Assembly (NCBI GenBank): GCA_944325605.1
Contig: CALVAX010000001.1
Coordinates: 186,001-250,000 of the forward strand
From: Candidatus Gastranaerophilales bacterium
GTDB taxonomy: Bacteria; Cyanobacteriota; Vampirovibrionia; Gastranaerophilales; Gastranaerophilaceae
Direction: 5' to 3'
DNA: 64,000 bases
The position numbers and the translations under genes are program-made. The notes beneath the pieces are model-generated. The model ran no database searches. It worked only from the letters and a program-made list of their open reading frames with translations, and was not told the DNA's origin. Of the stretch, positions 5,922-48,616 are shown in pieces. Position 1 is the first letter of the stretch. Each line of letters opens with the position of its first letter.

Positions 5922-8900
5922 TATACAAGAACCTTATTTATTATATCTACTAACACTTGTCTCTTTTCTTCTGAAGAGAGAGATTCTCCATACTCTTCCA
6001 TCATTGCTTCAGCATCGTTATATAGTAATTTAGCTTGTGAAGAGTATTCCTTTTTCTCAAATGTTTTAAACTCTTCGTGTCCGGAGGCATCTATATAACT
6101 TATTTTATAAAATTCTGTTTTATTTTTGCCTTGTTTAGCAATTTTATTGCTGTAGGCTTCAATATTATTCTTGAATTTTTCTAATGAAATATTATACGAT
6201 TCAATTGTTATTTGATCCCAATCATCTATTCTCAATCCGGTTGAAGTTCTAGCAAACATTTCAATAAATTTATTGGTATCTGCTGTCGGCTTTAAACACA
6301 ATCCTAACATTTGCTCTTCACTACTGCTAAATGCATGTGTTAAGACATCTTCACTAAATTGTTCTGACCAATCTTTTAATACTGATGACAAAGATGCTTT
6401 TTTATTCAAATTATTTGTAGCAAACATTTCTTTCATTTCACCACTTAAAGTATTAATTAAATTAGCTTTTATATTATCAAGATATTCTTTTGCTGCTAAT
6501 ATATCCTGTTCTATTTTCAATGAAAAGGTCTCATATCCAAATATTTCAGGCAATTTATCAAATAAAAATTCTCTTGCATTAATTTCAGGTGCTTTTAAAG
6601 AATTTTTGAATTTTAAGATTCTCTTGTCAAGAGCTTTAGATTTATTTTTATCTACATATTCTGTAGTCATTTCCTTTGTATATTTCGGCAATTGAAAAAA
6701 CCAACGCTGCATTGCCCTTACAATGAATTCGAAGTTGTTATATTCTGTTTCTTCTTCATGCACATATTCAGAAAATGTATTTTTTAAATCTTCAATATAT
6801 TTTTCTTTTTTTGTATCCCATTCTTCTAATGCAATATTGTAGTTGTATGGCTCTTCATTAATACTATCTAATAATTTTGCATTAATCTCGACTTCTTTTC
6901 CATTTTTAAGTATTACTGCGTATTTTTTATAATGATGTAAAACACACGCAATATATATTGGAATTAAGCCCATTTTCATTCCAATATGATGATTAGGTTC
7001 GGTTAATATGTCATATAATTCTTTAAATGACAACTGCTTTTCAGAAGATTTAACTATAAATTTCTTTATTAAATTCAAGACATTTTGTAATTTTTTGTTC
7101 TTTAAATTTTCTGTATTGATATAATATTGACCGGCTTTTTCTACTAAAATCCCTTCGTTTTTAACTGTACTTCTCATAAAACTGACATCTTGACCTGTTG
7201 CAATTAGGCCCAGATTTTCTTTTATATGATTTTCTAATATACCTGCTATAACTTTACTTCTGCTGTTTATCGCTTGACTTGAAAGAATATTCTTATTCAA
7301 TACTTCATTATTTATTATTGGATAATCTTTGTATGTCTCTTCACAAATCTCTGATAATTTTTTAGAAAGTACTGAACGACGATTAATCAGTTCTTCGTGT
7401 CCATTATTGTAATATTTTGATTGATTTAATTCCGGTCTTAAATATATATCTATAAAATCTGAAATGACATCAGATAATGCATTCAAAGAATATGATAATT
7501 CTTCCGATAATATTTCGTCATCGGTATTATCAATTAAATATTTAATGGCATCATACTTTATAATTTGTTCGTTAATATTATCTCTTTTCTTAGGAACTAT
7601 AAATATAATTCTTTTGTTATTTACATTTTTGTAGGCTTCTTTGAATACTATTTTTTTATCTTCGCTAATTTTAGGAATAACAGCAAATACAATACCATCT
7701 GCTCCATCTGATTTTATTACTTGTTCCCAATCAGTTATTCCATTTAAATCTTCTTGATTAACGAATTTAAAGTTAAAAAATCTGGTAACTTCATTACTAT
7801 CGTTATATGCATTTGGATATAGCACTTTATTTCCAACGAAATCATTTAAAATATCTTTTATTTCTACTAAATTTTTTCGTTCTTCAATAGTATCATTAAT
7901 TTTTGCTTCTACATTAATATCTGTATGCTCTGTAATCCTCAAATAATTTCCATTTTCGATCTGTCTTATTATTCCTTTATTTTTTAAATTTGTAAAAGCT
8001 TGATTTAATTTTTGGAAATCTGATACTGAGTTTTCGAAAATATTAGAGATTAAATTTACAGTAGGAGACAATAATTCAAAATGGTCATATATATATATTA
8101 AAGCAATTGTTTTAATAATCTTCTTCTCTAACAGTTCATCATTATTTAATTTATTTAATGCGGCATAAGCATTTTTCCAATATTTGTGTGTGTCTTTTTT
8201 ATAATCTTCTGCTTTAAATAATGGTTCAAAATAATCATATATGTAATCAGGCGTTAATATAGGAAAATCTTGATTATTATCCTTTAAAAACGAATAAAGT
8301 GTATGTTTCTGATTTCGTGATGATAAGAATGTAAATATTGTTCTCTCATTTTGAGCAATTTTTTCTGAAATATTTGGTAGCAGGAATGTAGTTATTGCTT
8401 GTAAAGGATAACAACCTATAACAATTTTTTCTATATCGTGATATTCAAGACTTGAGAAAGCTTTTGCCTCTTCCCATTTTTTTAACATATTATTAAAACG
8501 TTTTTCGTTATCTCTCAGGTAATCTTTGTACCAGTTAGGTTCTTGGCATATGATTTTTGACATTAAATCAAATTGCTGTGATAAAGAAGTATTAAACTCA
8601 AGAGTTGTAAATCTATTTGATACAGCTTTCCAAGCATCAATTTTATTTTTAGGTAATTTATCAACATAGTTTAAAATGCTTTGATGAGAAATTAACAAAA
8701 TATGCAATTGTTGTTCTTTAGTACGGCAACAATTTTCAGCAAAATCTTGTAATGTTTTTATTTCTGCTGCCGATGTTTTATTTAGATTCCCTTCGAGAAA
8801 TTTACTAAACTCATCATAAATAACATAAATTCCGGTATAACCTTCTTTTTTAAGCGATTTATTGACGGAATTATATAATTCAATAACATCAATATTTGAT

Positions 8901-40265: not shown

Positions 40266-41572
40266 TGTACACAAACCTTTCTTCCATCCTGGAACGCCTG
40301 GTGGGTCCAGAAGTATTCCCACTTACCAAAGCGTCCGATACTTTCTATTCCAACTTTATTCAGATAGTCCAGAACGGTCGCTCTGTTTTTGTAAATATCT
40401 TTGTCAAAGATTACGTTTGCATACTTTTCAAATCGTATGTCTTTTACAACAATTTCTTCTTCTTTAAACAATCCCATTCCTGCAAGCTTTTCAATTGTGT
40501 TTTTCAAAACTGCTTCTTTAGAAGGAATTTCCCAACCGCTTGCTGATTTTCCGGTTGCTGTAATTTCTTCCCCGCCCTTGTTTGCAAAGAAAATTTCAGC
40601 CTGCAGTGAACTGCACCCTTCAGGTACATTATCCGCAGACTTCAAGTTTGGCGAATAAACCCTTGCCGGCAAAATATCTTCATCGTAAATATAAAACCAG
40701 AGATGTTTTGCCACATCCGGACGATTAAATCCTAATGACACCATATAACCTGATGTGTGCATTAGATTTAAACCGGCTTCCTTTACTTCCTCCGGTATTC
40801 CGTCTATCATTTTTACTATTTCTGGCAGCGGAAGCGATGAAATCAATCTTGTGTATTTTGTGCTTGTTCCGTCTTTAAATATGACTATCTTTTCCTGAGG
40901 ATTGATTTTGATGACTTTTTTGTTAAAACGTATATCCAAACCTTCGCGGCATTTGTTTAAGATTGAGCGGAACCCGCCTTTTTTAGGGTATTTCATAAAT
41001 TTCGTGTAATAGAAGTTTTCTGCCTGTTCCTCATAAGATCCGCGTAAAACTTCACCAAGAGGCGATACGTGCAACCGGTTTCCAACCCATTTGGTTTCAA
41101 GATCTTCTGGTTCAACTCCCCAGTATTTGCGGGTGTATTTGAACGGAAAGTTTTCTGCAAAATAATTTCCGTATTGAACCCGAAGCCATTCTTCATAATT
41201 TTTGATTTCCAAAACTTCTTTTTGTGGACGGTTTACAAAATCCTCGATGATTTTTACTTTTTCTTTCACTGGCAAAGACCAGAGATTGTTTTGAGCAGGA
41301 TGCTTGAGCCAGTAACCGTTCCAGTAGTTGTAAGACACCGGAGGATGCGGGAAAGTCGGCGAGGATTCTTCAAAAATATTTTTTATGTACTCATCCGGCG
41401 CAAAAGTAAAATGCACAAACCGGTCAAAACGGAAGCCGTCTATCGTGAAATTTCCGCATAAACCGCCCCAGTCGCTGTCTTTTTCATAAATAACGACATT
41501 TTCACCGGATTTTTCAAGATGATAACCTGCAGAAATTCCGGCGATTCCGCTTCCTAAGATTACAGTTCCCAT
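40262..41572 (-). CDS. FAD-dependent oxidoreductase, UDP-galactopyranose-mutase-like
   Basis: 436 residues with an N-terminal FAD Rossmann motif (VILGSGIAGISAGYHLEKSG) and the GGLCGNFTIDGFRFD block. The family covers protoporphyrinogen-oxidase-like amine oxidoreductases and UDP-galactopyranose mutases. In a CDP-sugar operon, a pyranose-to-furanose ring mutase is the most sensible role. It overlaps the upstream RfbG gene by 13 bp and the downstream gene by 4 bp. Substrate is inferred only. Confidence 0.82.
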   Translation of the reverse strand: MGTVILGSGIAGISAGYHLEKSGENVVIYEKDSDWGGLCGNFTIDGFRFDRFVHFTFAPDEYIKNIFEESSPTFPHPPVSYNYWNGYWLKHPAQNNLWSLPVKEKVKIIEDFVNRPQKEVLEIKNYEEWLRVQYGNYFAENFPFKYTRKYWGVEPEDLETKWVGNRLHVSPLGEVLRGSYEEQAENFYYTKFMKYPKKGGFRSILNKCREGLDIRFNKKVIKINPQEKIVIFKDGTSTKYTRLISSLPLPEIVKMIDGIPEEVKEAGLNLMHTSGYMVSLGFNRPDVAKHLWFYIYDEDILPARVYSPNLKSADNVPEGCSSLQAEIFFANKGGEEITATGKSASGWEIPSKEAVLKNTIEKLAGMGLFKEEEIVVKDIRFEKYANVIFDKDIYKNRATVLDYLNKVGIESIGRFGKWEYFWTHQAFQDGRKVCVQ

Positions 41573-42654
41573 AGATATCCTTTATCCGAGTGTGCTTGAA
41601 TTTGTTTCTTACAAAATTCGAACATATCGTCCGAGTGCAGAGCTTCCTTGTACCAGTCAACCGTAAATTCTATAGCCTCTTTTAAATTAAGCATTGCTTT
41701 CCACTGAAGCATTCTGTATGCTTTTGTGACATCAAGACTCAACAGTGTATTTTCATGCACCATTTCTTTTCCTGATACATCTACTACTTTGCCTTTGCCG
41801 TAGTATTTAACCAGGTATTCCACAACTTCCCAAACTGTTTTGTTGCATTCTATCGGAGGCCCGAAGTTGAAACCTTCCGAATACTTAACAGGATCTTCCA
41901 TTAACTTCTGGCCGACTCTAAGGTATCCGCTTAAAGGCTCCATTACATGCTCCCACGGGCGTGTTGCCTTTGGTGATCGTATTTCGATATCTTTCCCTTC
42001 TTCAATAAATCTTATGCAGTCAGGGATTAAACGATTATCTGACCAGTCGCCTCCGCCGATTACATTTCCGGCGCGGACTGACGCTATTGCCTTTCCGTGT
42101 TTTGCATAATCTTTCGGGTTGAAGTAAGAGTTTCTGTAAGATGAAATCATTAGTTCTGCACACCCTTTTGAAGATGAATACGGGTCGTAACCGCCCATTC
42201 TGTCTGTTTCTTTGTAACCCCAGATTTGCTCTACATTTTCGTAGCACTTGTCAGAGGTAATCATAACAACCGTCTTAATACAATCAAATTTTCTGACAGC
42301 CTCCAGTATGTTCAAAGACCCCATAACGTTGGTTTCGTATGTGTATTTCGGATTTGCATAAGCTGTTCTGACTAACGCCTGTGCTGCAAGGTGGAAAACA
42401 ATTTCAGGTTTATACTTTGCGATTGTTTCTTCCAGCTTTTCACTGTCACGGACGTCACCCTTCACATCTGCAAATAAATGTTTTTCCAGATGTGAAGCCT
42501 TGTAGTTTCCTCTCTCGCTGTACGGTTCAAGCGCATAGCCGACAACTTTTGCCCCGAGCATTGTAAGCCAGATTGAAAGCCAGCTTCCTTTAAAGCCGGT
42601 ATGACCTGTTACAAGTACTGTTTTACCTGAATAAACATTATTAAAATTTGACAC
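41560..42654 (-). CDS. rfbG: CDP-glucose 4,6-dehydratase
   Basis: 364 residues from a GTG at 42654 with AGGAGAG upstream; the ATG at 42693 would lie 53 bp inside the previous gene and adds a non-conserved tail. It is an SDR fold: VLVTGHTGFKGSWLSIWL, then the catalytic Tyr/Lys in DPYSSSKGCAE. It converts CDP-glucose to CDP-4-keto-6-deoxyglucose, the branch point of CDP-deoxy sugars. It follows RfbF and a reductase/epimerase in the operon. Confidence 0.93.
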   Translation of the reverse strand: MSNFNNVYSGKTVLVTGHTGFKGSWLSIWLTMLGAKVVGYALEPYSERGNYKASHLEKHLFADVKGDVRDSEKLEETIAKYKPEIVFHLAAQALVRTAYANPKYTYETNVMGSLNILEAVRKFDCIKTVVMITSDKCYENVEQIWGYKETDRMGGYDPYSSSKGCAELMISSYRNSYFNPKDYAKHGKAIASVRAGNVIGGGDWSDNRLIPDCIRFIEEGKDIEIRSPKATRPWEHVMEPLSGYLRVGQKLMEDPVKYSEGFNFGPPIECNKTVWEVVEYLVKYYGKGKVVDVSGKEMVHENTLLSLDVTKAYRMLQWKAMLNLKEAIEFTVDWYKEALHSDDMFEFCKKQIQAHSDKGYLWEL

Positions 42655-43564
42655 TGTTAATTTCTCTCCTGTTGTAATCTTTCCACCACTCAATAGTCAT
42701 TTTTAAGCCTTCATCAAGTGAATATTTTTGAGTCCAGCCGGTTGATTTCAATTTTTCGTTGTTTCCTGCGACTAAATCATCTCCGAAGGCAGCCGGTATC
42801 GCGCCCCATAGGATATTGCCTTTAAAGTCGGTAAGTTCGGCTATTTTTTCGACGATAGTTCTGAGTTGTACTGGTTTACCCGAGCAGATATTGACGGCCC
42901 CTTGAATATCTGCTTCAAAGACATCTACTATACCGCGGGCAGTGTCTTCCACATGCAGGTAATCCTGAAATTTAAGGCAATCGCTGACTTTTACATCCTC
43001 GCCTTTCAGACACGAATTAATAACCGACGGCATTAATCTCTGCGGTTTTTCCGCAGGCCCGTACAGATTAAAAATTCTAGGCCATTTAAATTCTATATTA
43101 TTTTGTTTGCAATAGACTTTAGCGATATTAAAGATAGCGTTTTTGGTATTTCCGTAAAGAGTTTGCGGATCGGTTGGAGTTTGCTCTTCAACCAGATAGC
43201 CGTATTTGTATTCGTATTCAGAAATTGTACCGGCGCCTAAGAATTTTTTACCGCCGCTTTCCTTAAATAATTTAAGTAAATTCAATGTTGCAATAGTCCA
43301 GTCCAGATTTAAATCATGGATGTGGCATTTAGGTCCAACATACCAGGCGAGGTGAATAAGGTTTTCAAAGGAATGGTTTTTGAAGAACTCTTCAAGAGCT
43401 TCTTTATCCAGAAGGTTCATTTCGTACTGAACAAGCCCGTCATTTTCAGGTGCAAACGGAGGATATACAAGCGAATGAACTTCATATCCCCGTCTTATTA
43501 ATTCATCTACTACATTGCGGCCGATAAAACCAGTTCCGCCGGTAACTAAAACTCTCTCTTTCAT
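42641..43564 (-). CDS. NAD-dependent epimerase/reductase acting on CDP-4-keto-6-deoxyhexose
   Basis: 307-residue SDR protein: VLVTGGTGFIGRNVVDEL, GAGTISEYEYKYG, and the catalytic pair in LYGNTKNAI. It sits between RfbF and RfbG, where CDP-abequose/paratose synthases (RfbJ/RfbS type) usually lie, so reduction or epimerisation of the RfbG product is expected. The RfbH 3-dehydratase needed for 3,6-dideoxy sugars is not seen in the window, so the product may be a plain 6-deoxyhexose. Confidence 0.85.
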   Translation of the reverse strand: MKERVLVTGGTGFIGRNVVDELIRRGYEVHSLVYPPFAPENDGLVQYEMNLLDKEALEEFFKNHSFENLIHLAWYVGPKCHIHDLNLDWTIATLNLLKLFKESGGKKFLGAGTISEYEYKYGYLVEEQTPTDPQTLYGNTKNAIFNIAKVYCKQNNIEFKWPRIFNLYGPAEKPQRLMPSVINSCLKGEDVKVSDCLKFQDYLHVEDTARGIVDVFEADIQGAVNICSGKPVQLRTIVEKIAELTDFKGNILWGAIPAAFGDDLVAGNNEKLKSTGWTQKYSLDEGLKMTIEWWKDYNRREINSVKF

Positions 43565-43566
43565 TT

Positions 43567-44382
43567 TTATATTACTCCGGCTAAGGTTTCATACGCGTTA
43601 GTTTTCTCCCAGACTTTCCAGGGAGCTGTACCGGATTCCCACATTTCATCCAGTTCAATTTTGTCTCTCAGAGTGTCCATGGGCCGCCAGAAGCCGTGGT
43701 GTTTGTATGCAGCAAGCCCGCCGTGTTCGGCTATTGTTTCAAGAGGTCTGCGCTCAAAGATTTCGTTTTCATTTCCTGCTTCTATAAAGTTAAACACTTC
43801 AGGTTCGCAGACAAAGAATCCGCCGTTTATCCAGCCGCCGTCGCCTTTTGGTTTTTCTCTGAATGAAGATATTGTTCCATCCTCTTCTATATTCAGCGCG
43901 CCAAATCTGCCGGAAGGCTGAACTGAAGTCATTGTCATTATTTTTTTATGCGAGTTGTGGAACTCCACAAGTTCTTTAATATTCACATCTGCAACACCGT
44001 CGCCGTAGGTAAGTAAGAAGGGTTCATCCCCGACATAATCCTGTGCTTTTTTAATTCTGGCACCTGTCATTGCATTCTGCCCTGTATAAAGCATTGTTAC
44101 TTTCCAGGGTTCCGTGCGCATTTTGTGAAGCTCTATTGTATTGTCACGCATATCTATCGTTAGGTCTGAATATCTTTGATAATAGTGAACAAAGTAATCT
44201 TTAATTACATGAGATTTATATCCTGTCAGGATTACAAAGTCATTAAAGCCATAATGCGAATAAATCTTCATTATGTGCCACAGAATAGGATACCCGCCGA
44301 TTTCTACCATCGGCTTCGGTTTTGTTCCCGTTTCCTCGCCCAATCTCGTGCCTAGGCCCCCTGCTAATATTAGTACCTTCAT
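43567..44382 (-). CDS. rfbF: Glucose-1-phosphate cytidylyltransferase
   Basis: 271 residues. The nucleotidyltransferase signature LAGGLGTRLGEETGTKPKPM is followed by the metal-binding LTYGDGVADV and the WINGGFFVCEPEVF block of RfbF. It joins glucose-1-phosphate and CTP to CDP-glucose, the first step of the CDP-deoxy-sugar route. It is the first gene of the leftward polysaccharide operon, and its start is 46 bp from the left copy of the 28-bp inverted repeat. Confidence 0.95.
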   Translation of the reverse strand: MKVLILAGGLGTRLGEETGTKPKPMVEIGGYPILWHIMKIYSHYGFNDFVILTGYKSHVIKDYFVHYYQRYSDLTIDMRDNTIELHKMRTEPWKVTMLYTGQNAMTGARIKKAQDYVGDEPFLLTYGDGVADVNIKELVEFHNSHKKIMTMTSVQPSGRFGALNIEEDGTISSFREKPKGDGGWINGGFFVCEPEVFNFIEAGNENEIFERRPLETIAEHGGLAAYKHHGFWRPMDTLRDKIELDEMWESGTAPWKVWEKTNAYETLAGVI

Positions 44383-44427
44383 ACTTTGTCTCTTTCTTTG
44401 ATATTAAGAATGTCATCGGATACAAAT

Positions 44428-44455
44428 ACAACATTTTAAATAAAATGTTGTGTAA
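44428..44455 (+). repeat. Left copy of the 28-bp inverted repeat
   Basis: A 10-bp-armed near-palindrome (ACAACATTTT, loop AAAT, AAAATGTTGT) plus GTAA. It is identical to the reverse complement of 44576-44603. Confidence 0.9.
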
Positions 44456-44575
44456 CACAACTATATGTGGATTACGGCATAAATAAAGTCTAACAGGTTA
44501 TTATTACAAAATATTAATATTTAACAGCATTTATATATTATAAAATATTTTTGAGATAATATTAGTTTTAAAAGA

Positions 44576-44603
44576 TTACACAACATTTTATTTAAAATGT
44601 TGT
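44576..44603 (-). repeat. Right copy of the 28-bp inverted repeat
   Basis: Exact reverse complement of 44428-44455, including the asymmetric loop and the four flanking bases; identity stops at the next base on both sides. It ends about 100 bp before the first rightward glycosyltransferase gene. Confidence 0.9.
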
Positions 44604-44701
44604 GTTTAAAAGCAGGAATTATTGTAAGAGAGAATGATGACTTACATAAAAAAATATCAAATACTAAAAACTTCAAATTTAAAATCTGTGGCGGAGGAAG
44701 A

Positions 44702-45673
44702 ATGATTAATCCTTTAGTTACTGTTTTGCTTGTTACTTACAATCATATTAATACTTTTGAAAAAGCTATCCAGAGTGTATTGAGTCAGAAAACTACATTT
44801 CCTGTTCAAATAATTATTCTTGATGATGCTTCAACTGATGGGACTGTCAACTTAATAAACAAATATAAAAATTTAGAAAACGTAAAATGTATATTAAGAG
44901 AGAAAAATGTCGGCGGAACAACTAATATTTATGAAGGGCTGAAGCTTGTTAATACAAAATACTTTGCAACCCTTGAAACAGACGACTATTGGTGTGACGA
45001 GAATAAACTCCAGACACAGGTTAATATACTGGAAAAACATCCTGAATGTTCCTTCTGCGCGCACAATACACTGGTAAAATATGCAGACAGCAACAAAACA
45101 AGATATTATATCAAAGAAGCTCCTGATAAAATCTTTAAGTTTCCTCCGAAGGAAATTAAAAGAAAATATTATATAGAACCTCACGCATCTTCAAGACTTT
45201 ACAGAACAGAATGCCTTAATCTTAAAGAAATTAAAAATCCGGTAATTGTAACCTATGATGTAGCATCAAACTTTTATTTTCTGACAAAAGGAAATCTGTA
45301 TTATATAAACAAAGTTATGTCGGTTTACAATTGCAGCGGAGGCGGAGTTTATTCGGGAATTTCTGCTTACAGGCAAAGATATAAGACAGCTTCTGTAATT
45401 TTACAGCTTAATAAAGAGTTTGACTTTAAATATAACCGTCTGCTTTCAAGGTTTTTCTCTACAAGGCTCAATCTGAATTTTCTTACTTACCTCGGGCTTA
45501 GGCATTCAAAAAATTCGGAAAAACTGGATAAAATGTATTACGGTATTCTTGAAAATTACAAGAAAAAATATTTGAACAACCGTGATCAAAAACCAATTTG
45601 TTATTTAAGCCTGCCGTTGAGTAAAAAAGCATCATTGGTTTTGGAATTGAGAAGGGAGAAGGACAGGGCATGA
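44702..45673 (+). CDS. Glycosyltransferase family 2 protein
   Basis: 323 residues from the ATG at 44702, four bases after GGAGG. An earlier ATG at 44597 falls inside the right inverted repeat and gives a non-conserved extension. GT2 features: VTVLLVTYNHINTFEKAIQS, IILDDASTDGT and the DxD in LETDDYWC. It transfers an activated sugar at the cytoplasmic membrane face. It overlaps the RmlB gene by 4 bp. A similar enzyme is encoded at 48707. Confidence 0.92.
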   Translation: MINPLVTVLLVTYNHINTFEKAIQSVLSQKTTFPVQIIILDDASTDGTVNLINKYKNLENVKCILREKNVGGTTNIYEGLKLVNTKYFATLETDDYWCDENKLQTQVNILEKHPECSFCAHNTLVKYADSNKTRYYIKEAPDKIFKFPPKEIKRKYYIEPHASSRLYRTECLNLKEIKNPVIVTYDVASNFYFLTKGNLYYINKVMSVYNCSGGGVYSGISAYRQRYKTASVILQLNKEFDFKYNRLLSRFFSTRLNLNFLTYLGLRHSKNSEKLDKMYYGILENYKKKYLNNRDQKPICYLSLPLSKKASLVLELRREKDRA

Positions 45674-46653
45674 ATATACTTGTAACAGGTGGTGCCGGAT
45701 TTATCGGCAGTTGCTTTGTAAGGCATATACTTAATACTTATCCGGATTATCGGGTTATAAATCTTGATGCGCTTACTTACTGCGGGAATTTGGACAATCT
45801 GAAAGATGTTGAAAACAATCCGAATTACAGGTTTGTTCATGGCAATATCTGCGACAAACGGCTTGTGCGGGAATTAACCGGACAGGTTGACTTGGTTGTT
45901 AATTTTGCGGCAGAATCCCACGTAGATAATTCAATTAAAAGACCCGAAATTTTTGTAGAAACAAATATTCAAGGGACATTGAATCTTCTTCAGGCTTCAA
46001 AAGAAACGGGGATTAAAAGATTTTTGCAGGTTTCAACGGACGAAGTTTACGGAACGCTCGGAAAGACAGGATATTTTTATGAAACAACCCCGCTTGCGCC
46101 GAACAGTCCGTATTCTGCATCTAAAGCAGGTGCAGATTTATTAGTGAGAGCTTACGGAGAAACATACAGCCTTCCTGTTCTTATCACAAGATGTTCAAAC
46201 AATTACGGTCCGTATCAATATCCCGAAAAACTTATTCCGTTTTTTATCTCACGGCTTTTGAAAGACGAAAAGGTGCCGGTCTACGGCGACGGACTTAATG
46301 TTCGTGACTGGTTATATGTTTACGATCACTGCAGGGCTATAGATGTTGTGCTCCATAGAGGGGAAGCCGGTGAAGTTTATAATATCGGCGGGCATAACGA
46401 AAAGACTAACCTTGAAATTACCCGTATTATTCTGGAAAAAATGGGCAAAGACGAATCCTTCATCGAGTATGTACAGGATAGATTAGGTCATGACAGACGT
46501 TACGCAATTTCTAACGACAAAATTACTTCACAACTAGGCTGGAAACCATCTGTTACTTTTGAAGAAGGAATTTCAATGACAATAGACTGGTATCTGAATA
46601 ATCAGGACTGGATTAAAAATATTGAAAGAAAAAAGGAGGCTGCATTAGTATGA
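45670..46653 (+). CDS. rfbB: dTDP-glucose 4,6-dehydratase
   Basis: 327 residues. SDR signature [19 protein letters not shown], RmlB-specific [13 protein letters not shown] and [11 protein letters not shown], and the catalytic YSASKAGAD. It makes dTDP-4-keto-6-deoxyglucose. Gene ends overlap both neighbours by 4 bp, so GT2, rmlB, rmlA and the aminotransferase are one operon. Confidence 0.96.
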
Positions 46654-47522
46654 AAGGTATAATACTTGCCGGCGGTTCCGGAACAAGATTGTATCCGACA
46701 ACGCTTGTAACTTCAAAACAGCTTCTGCCCGTGTTTGACAAGCCGATGATTTATTACCCACTTTCAGTTCTTATGCTTGCTGGGATAAGAAATATTCTGA
46801 TTATAACAACGGAAAAAGATGTACCGGAATTTCAAAAACTTCTTGGTGACGGAAAACATTTCGGGATTAATTTGTCATACAAAATTCAGAAACAACCGAA
46901 CGGTCTTGCTGAAGCTTTTATTATCGGCGAAGATTTTATCGGGAAAGATTGTGTGACACTCATTTTAGGGGATAACATTTTCTTCGGTCCGCGCTTTTCA
47001 GGAACATTAAAATACCGTTCAAAACAGATTGAAAAAGAAGGCGGAGCCTGCATTTTTTCTTATCCCGTAAAACAGCCGGAAAGATTTGGAATTGTCGAAT
47101 TTGACAAAGACGGCAGGGTGCTTTCAATAGAAGAAAAACCTGAAAACCCTAAATCAAAGTATGCCGTAACAGGTTTGTATATGTATGACAATTCCGTTAT
47201 AAATTATGCAAAAAATCTCAAACCCTCTGCAAGAGGAGAATTAGAAATTACAGATATTAATAACATTTATTTGAAAAATAATACTCTCAGAATGGAAAGA
47301 TTGGGACGTGGATTTTCGTGGCTTGACACCGGAACCCATGAGTCATTGCTTCAGGCAGGTCAGTATGTTCAGACGATTGAGGAAAATCAGGGGATAAAAA
47401 TGGCATGTCTTGAAGAAGTTGCGTTTAGAATGAAGTATTTATCAAAGACAAAGATTTTAAACAATATAAAAAATGTTAAAAACAATGAATATTACGATTA
47501 TGTCAGGAGTCTTGTAGGATGA
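46650..47522 (+). CDS. rfbA: Glucose-1-phosphate thymidylyltransferase
   Basis: 290 residues. Nucleotidyltransferase signature [20 protein letters not shown], then [10 protein letters not shown] and the [10 protein letters not shown] block of RmlA. It makes dTDP-glucose from dTTP and glucose-1-phosphate, supplying RmlB. Length and motifs are normal for the family. Confidence 0.96.
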
Positions 47523-48616
47523 CAACAGCAACATCTTCAGAAAAAATATTTGTAACGAAACCATATCTTCCGCCAAAGGAGGAATATTATTCGTATGTAG
47601 ACAAAATATATGAAACAGGACATTTGACAAACGAAGGTCCGCTTGTGAAAGAATTGGAAAGGAAACTTTCCGATTATCTGGGGGTAAAAAATTTTCAGTA
47701 CGTGACAAACGGAACGATTGCACTTCAATTTGCCCTGAAAGCCCTCGGAATTGAGGACGGAGAAATAATCTCAACACCGTTTTCTTATGTGGCAACAACG
47801 TCATCAATTTTGTGGGAAAGATGCAAACCTGTATTTGTAGATATTGAACCGGATAACTATACGTTGGACGTGAATAAAATAGAGGCTGCAATAACCGACA
47901 AAACAAAAGCAATAATGCCTGTACACGTATTCGGCTATGCCTGTGATGTTGACGGAATACAAAAAATAGCTGATAAATATGGTCTGAAAGTCATATATGA
48001 TGCGGCACATGCTTTTGGGTCAATATATAAAGGCAAATCCCTTCTATCATACGGTGATGTTTCAACACTGTCGTTTCATGCAACAAAGTTATTCCACACG
48101 GTAGAAGGTGGAGCATGTATTGCAAAAGATAAAGAAGTTTTCGACAGATTGCATATGATTAAGAGATTCGGGAATATCGGAGATGAGCACTACAACCTTG
48201 GCATAAACGGAAAACAATCGGAATTTCACGCAGCGATGGGGCTGGCAAATTTTGCTCATCTGGAAGATATAAAACAGAGAAGAAAAACTATTTCCGAATA
48301 CTATGATGAATTGCTGGAAGGCAGATTAGCCCGTCCAAGCGTACAGTCGGAATTGGAATATAATTATGCATATTATCCGGTATTGTTTAAAACGGAAGAA
48401 GAATTGTTAAGCGTATTTGCAGCACTGAATCAGCAGGGAATTTATCCGAGAAGATATTTTTATCCGAGTCTGAATACAATCGGATATATGCCGGAGAGAT
48501 ATAAGTGTCTGGTCAGTGAAGATATATCAAAAAGAATTGCCTGTCTACCATTATATGTCGGATTAAAAGATTCGGACATTGAAATGATTTGTAAGATCAT
48601 TTTGGCTGATGGATAA
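47519..48616 (+). CDS. DegT/DnrJ/EryC1-family sugar aminotransferase
   Basis: 365-residue PLP enzyme. The PLP lysine is in [17 protein letters not shown], and [15 protein letters not shown] holds the cofactor-binding Asp. The [14 protein letters not shown] variant is typical of enzymes aminating dTDP-4-keto-6-deoxyglucose (VioA-like) or a 3-keto isomer (FdtB-like). No ketoisomerase gene is in the operon, so a 4-amino product is likelier. It overlaps rmlA by 4 bp. Confidence 0.9.

Follow-up and report, generated by a model that had tools for sequence, protein, structure and literature searches.

Gastranaerophilales are non-photosynthetic gut relatives of cyanobacteria, known mostly from metagenome-assembled genomes. 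In the 64,000-nucleotide stretch of a Gastranaerophilales genome analysed here (the window), an exact inverted repeat lies between two divergent surface-glycan operons. The question is whether the DNA between its arms is inverted by site-specific recombination or the arms are two operators that stay in place. The evidence favours a tyrosine-recombinase-type site-specific DNA inversion switch (inverton) between the two operons, with a probability of about 0.88.

The inverted repeat and its flanking operons

The arms of the repeat are 28 bp long and 120 bp apart (Table 1). A preceding reading of the sequence alone (the sequence-only reading) had described them as perfect reverse complements including an asymmetric AAAT/ATTT loop and four flanking bases, and comparison of the arms confirms this. 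The end of the identity is slightly less sharp than was stated there: 28 bp are perfect, and the match runs on to 32 nt at 97% (44424-44455 / 44576-44607). The near-palindromic nature of the repeats also holds for both arms. The left arm is a palindrome at 44428-44451 (10+4+10, with an asymmetric 4-bp centre), and the right arm is a palindrome at 44578-44605 (13+2+13). The asymmetric overlap, AAAT/ATTT, is identical in the two sites.

A scan of the entire window found this pair as the sole inverted repeat scoring at least 18 within 1.5 kb. As the sequence-only reading had proposed, the genome was searched for other copies; with up to 3 mismatches to the 24-mer, the two window arms are the only ones in the whole 2.15-Mb genome. 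The lack of further copies is expected of a switch, not of a widespread operator. Rfam gave no match in the window. Promoter scans of the core, including a matrix scan for direction, returned nothing above chance. A pair of terminators was considered, based on two terminator-like matches in a scan, and rejected; the stems are AT-rich, and the inverted core described below would be left unexplained.

Table 1. Positions of the switch, the neighbouring operon genes and the inactive recombinase paralogue (window coordinates unless a contig is named)
Feature	Position	Strand	Evidence
Left recombination site	44428..44455	.	ACAACATTTT-AAAT-AAAATGTTGT + GTAA; centre 44438-44441; exact inverted repeat and palindrome
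Invertible core (putative), 120 bp	44456..44575	.	Reversed match in G013; presumed promoter carrier
Right recombination site	44576..44603	.	TTAC + ACAACATTTT-ATTT-AAAATGTTGT; centre 44590-44593; exact reverse complement of left arm
rfbF, glucose-1-phosphate cytidylyltransferase (left operon, gene 1)	43567..44382	-	TIGR02623, 395.7 bits (cut-off 300.25)
NAD-dependent epimerase and CDP-glucose 4,6-dehydratase (left operon)	41560..43564	-	PF01370; TIGR02622, 480.9 bits (cut-off 278.45)
Family 2 glycosyltransferase (right operon, gene 1)	44702..45673	+	PF00535; GGAGG just upstream of 44702
rmlB (dTDP-glucose 4,6-dehydratase), rmlA, DegT-family aminotransferase (right operon)	45670..48616	+	TIGR01181 and TIGR01207 above cut-off; PF01041
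Dead recombinase paralogue, 175 aa	own genome C10:25633-26157 (L069 10631-11158 = L205)		

The assignment of the two divergent operons to CDP-sugar and dTDP-sugar synthesis is borne out by the TIGR and PF family matches. The mechanical start of the glycosyltransferase open reading frame, ATG 44597, falls within the right repeat. A start at 44702, behind GGAGG, appears more likely. Automatic annotation may begin this gene at 44597, inside the repeat.

Orientation and pairing of sites in related genomes

The core was compared with a homologous locus (L068) in G013, which is another species of the same genus. The start of rfbF and its upstream flank align forwards (window 44258-44401 with L068 1-144, 95%), and the rfbF-proximal site of G013 comes after this flank. 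Past the site, G013 aligns in the reversed direction only: window 44504-44601 corresponds to L068 270-174, with 82.7% identity over 98 bp (E = 8e-20). The reversed stretch covers approximately 73 bp of the core and one site, and the opposite orientation is one between species. The ungapped inverted alignment of the core extends over 70 bp at 84%, a score reached by none of 2000 dinucleotide shuffles; the best forward alignment of the core with G013 scores within the shuffle range. The core is alignable to G013 only in part. The second, right-hand site of G013, around L068 316-333, is decayed, and a different gene lies beyond it. As read from these alignments, it is shown that most of the segment points one way in one species and the other way in the second, with a constant flank.

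The pattern RCAACATTTT-N4-AAAATGTTGY was scanned over one genome per species in 84,980 species, which yielded 63 stretches. Two groups have site pairs, the Gastranaerophilales and the Lachnospiraceae/Eubacterium-like genomes. The matches in Flavobacterium, Planctomycetes, Gallionellaceae, and other unrelated taxa are single sites. When a partner with up to 4 mismatches is accepted, the two centres are exactly reverse-complementary in 41 of 43 rows, or in 38 of the 39 non-redundant pairs that are left after removal of contigs present in two collections, and no centre is palindromic. The centres vary among loci (GGAT/ATCC, GTCT/AGAC, AGCC/GGCT, GATT/AATC, and others). Centres that are reverse-complementary within a pair and vary between loci are explained by strand exchange between identical overlaps and not by the function of an operator. 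The innermost 2 bp are palindromic in several related pairs (TTAT and GATT, for example). Therefore, a 2-bp overlap is unable to define the orientation, and the asymmetry needs at least 4 bp. The variable 4-bp centre suggests a way for one recombinase to serve several switches without recombining them with one another. When the half-site pattern was loosened, it matched about as often in the genus as the reversed-pattern control did, and no further switches are therefore claimed from such matches.

Contig ends are another source of information. Of the 21 sites in Gastranaerophilales, seven are less than 300 bp away from the end of a contig, where 0.94 would be expected (P = 1e-5). Two contigs of G041 stop at distances of 49 bp and 8 bp from matching sites, and each of these sites adjoins a homologous glycosyltransferase gene. 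An assembler ends contigs in this way when both orientations are present, and the enrichment may be taken as an indirect sign of mixed populations.

Several sites of the same type lie in other contexts. In Lachnospiraceae/Eubacterium (L093, L107, L117, L123, L126, L137, L145, L150, L103, L127, and L144), pairs adjoin genes that resemble csrA or flagellin by their N-termini; their arms are approximately 165 bp apart or enclose a recombinase. These pairs are possible flagellar phase switches. The same palindrome is seen upstream of a uvrB-like gene in three Gastranaerophilales, as a single site in L112 (3854) and L148 (5526) and as a pair in L139 (486 and 947), and it could be either an operator or a decayed switch. 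Single palindromes of this kind also lie upstream of hldE-like genes in relatives. In the genome under study, the palindrome at C1:268 was rejected as a switch: it is a lone site just beyond a gene end, is also present in G013, and is taken as a terminator.

Candidate recombinases and an inactive paralogue

The absence of an intact recombinase from the window, pointed out in the sequence-only reading, is confirmed: no recombinase gene is encoded in the 64 kb. In related genomes, many of the pairs enclose or directly adjoin an open reading frame of approximately 180-230 aa that is homologous to FimB-like tyrosine recombinases. The genome that contains the window has 12 Phage_integrase matches. 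Among its short recombinases, three retain all six catalytic residues (C5:138064-138681, C1:278522-279067, and C6:49851-50420), and none of the three adjoins the window switch.

The enzyme encoded on C5 is the most likely candidate to act on the window switch. It is a FimB-like protein of 205 aa with a complete catalytic set, and it groups with the enzyme that adjoins a pair in G096, whose half-sites are those of the window. Its best relatives within the genus are those of G013 (85% aa identity, syntenic over 1984 bp) and G004 (82% aa identity, beside a switch at an rfbF cluster). The recombinase is under purifying selection, with dN/dS of 0.03-0.05. No inverted repeat was detected beside the C5 gene. 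A recombinase gene with no adjoining repeat and a switch with no adjoining recombinase fit action in trans.

Two other observations concern these contigs. The intact short recombinase on C6 (L154 9852-10421) lies approximately 0.9 kb from a 1942-aa autotransporter-like open reading frame (L154 3151-8979), and no inverted repeat was detected between them. C5 contains a 20-bp perfect inverted repeat, AGGGAGTTATGTAGCAAATT, of unrelated sequence, with 110 bp between its arms (L152 8360-8379 / 8490-8509). This is possibly another invertible segment of the same genome.

A paralogous rfbF cluster (94%) is present on C10. Ahead of the cluster lies a gene for a 175-aa recombinase-like protein, and ahead of that gene a perfect inverted repeat whose 23-bp arms are 105 bp apart and have the centres ATTC/GAAT. 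The window core has no significant homology to the core on C10 or to those of G004 and G009. In the C10 protein, Arg I is replaced by Lys and the His of HxxR by Glu. A profile search across genomes of the family collected a clade of such proteins from 31 loci in 30 genomes (members include L187, L205-L211, L227, and L229-L250). The His of HxxR is replaced in all 31 loci, Arg I in most, and Tyr is changed to Phe in about half. At 20 of the 31 loci an inverted-repeat pair lies directly upstream of the dead gene, and at 15 loci a recombinase of the catalytically complete type, truncated in one case, lies on the far side of the pair. The dead gene is the first gene after the invertible segment in related modules. 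Among the downstream genes that were examined, most encode nucleotidyltransferases, dehydratases, sugar transferases, or glycosyltransferases. Purifying selection acts on the dead gene (dN/dS of 0.04 between the C10 copy and that of G004). The window switch has no such gene; it is a feature of the family and not of the window copy.

A plausible role of the dead recombinase is orientation-dependent inhibition of inversion. As a tentative and rather doubtful extension, the window switch might be an orphan of a genome-wide family, in which the dead paralogue, encoded after the segment and made in one orientation only, would bind the shared half-sites in trans, lock orientations, and keep several glycan operons mutually exclusive.

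Proposed mechanism, alternatives, and known switches

In the proposed mechanism, recombination would take place between the two near-palindromic sites, which are inverted relative to each other and each consist of two half-sites around an asymmetric 4-bp centre. The identity of the centres would turn the exchange into an inversion and give the locus its own address. After each flip of the 120-bp core, rfbF and the glycosyltransferase operon would face its other end. The recombinase would come in trans, most likely as the 205-aa enzyme of C5. Flipping presumably goes on in this strain, and the core is presumed to contain a promoter that would drive one of the two operons in each orientation, so that inversion would swap promoter output between them. 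The invertible segment envisaged by the sequence-only reading is supported by the inverted homologue in G013, the reverse-complementary centres, the tyrosine recombinases in or beside related pairs, and the enrichment at contig ends.

If the arms were instead two palindromic transcription-factor sites that control both divergent operons with no flipping, the good palindrome in each arm and the single palindromes that relatives have ahead of uvrB- and hldE-like genes would be accounted for. The paired operator, raised as the rival in the sequence-only reading, nevertheless leaves unexplained the inversion of the core between species, the centres that are reverse-complementary within pairs and variable between them, the recombinase genes linked to related pairs or inside them, and the enrichment at contig ends. 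Moreover, the palindrome does not recur at other promoters of the same genome (up to 3 mismatches). This explanation is very improbable. Inversion by a small serine invertase of the Hin/Mpi kind has similarly little chance. Five proteins with a Resolvase domain are encoded in the genome, two of them approximately 200 aa long, and a palindrome centred on 2 bp (AA/TT) would fit such an enzyme. Against it, the recombinases within or next to related pairs are tyrosine recombinases, and the innermost 2 bp are palindromic in several of these pairs, which could not define orientation. The likening of the locus to Bacteroides capsule promoters stands as far as inversion between inverted repeats is concerned. 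It fails as to the enzyme: Mpi is a serine recombinase, and the relatives of the window switch point to a FimB-like tyrosine recombinase.

The segment could also have flipped formerly and now be locked in this strain. The lack of a nearby recombinase in the window and the decayed second site of the G013 copy would agree with a fossil, which is nonetheless unlikely: the two arms agree at all 28 bp, and the genome retains, under purifying selection, an intact recombinase that belongs to the right subgroup. A fossil and a live inverton are the same kind of element and are not mutually exclusive as to kind.

No report of inversion switches in Gastranaerophilales, or of such a switch with a catalytically dead tyrosine recombinase, was found in the open literature, a coverage that leaves most subscription papers outside. 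The switch proposed here offers a testable mechanism for surface-glycan variation in this order. Given a conserved dead recombinase next to live ones, one may ask whether orientation is self-locked or made mutually exclusive.

By its anatomy, the element belongs to the fimS type, with the acting enzyme and the promoter as candidates. In Escherichia coli, the fimS, hyxS, and ipuS switches of the FimB-FimE family are short segments that invert between inverted repeats and lie ahead of genes for surface structures; the recombinases are tyrosine recombinases of approximately 200 aa, some of which serve several switches in trans, and the repeats of ipuS are 7 bp long (PMC6083910). The window switch shares with them the short segment between inverted repeats at surface-structure genes and, among its candidates, tyrosine recombinases of about that size. 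It differs in its sites, palindromes of 24-28 bp in which the 4-bp centre is variable, and in its position between two divergent glycan operons. A further difference is that the Gastranaerophilales family has, at many of its loci, a conserved paralogue that is catalytically dead. In Clostridioides difficile, one tyrosine recombinase, RecV, acts in trans on several unlinked switches (Cdi1-Cdi6), the repeats of which are mostly unrelated to one another (PMC5903667). A single recombinase for unlinked switches is likewise proposed here, but variation is confined to the centre, between conserved half-sites. Mpi of Bacteroides fragilis is a trans-acting recombinase for invertible segments at surface-polysaccharide operons (PMC5903667, discussion). 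The window switch shares this setting and a recombinase proposed to act in trans, but its putative enzyme is a tyrosine recombinase. Taken alone, the window copy is of a known kind. What is new compared with known switches is the combination of palindromic sites with addressable centres and related modules of live and dead recombinases, one of them in the same genome.
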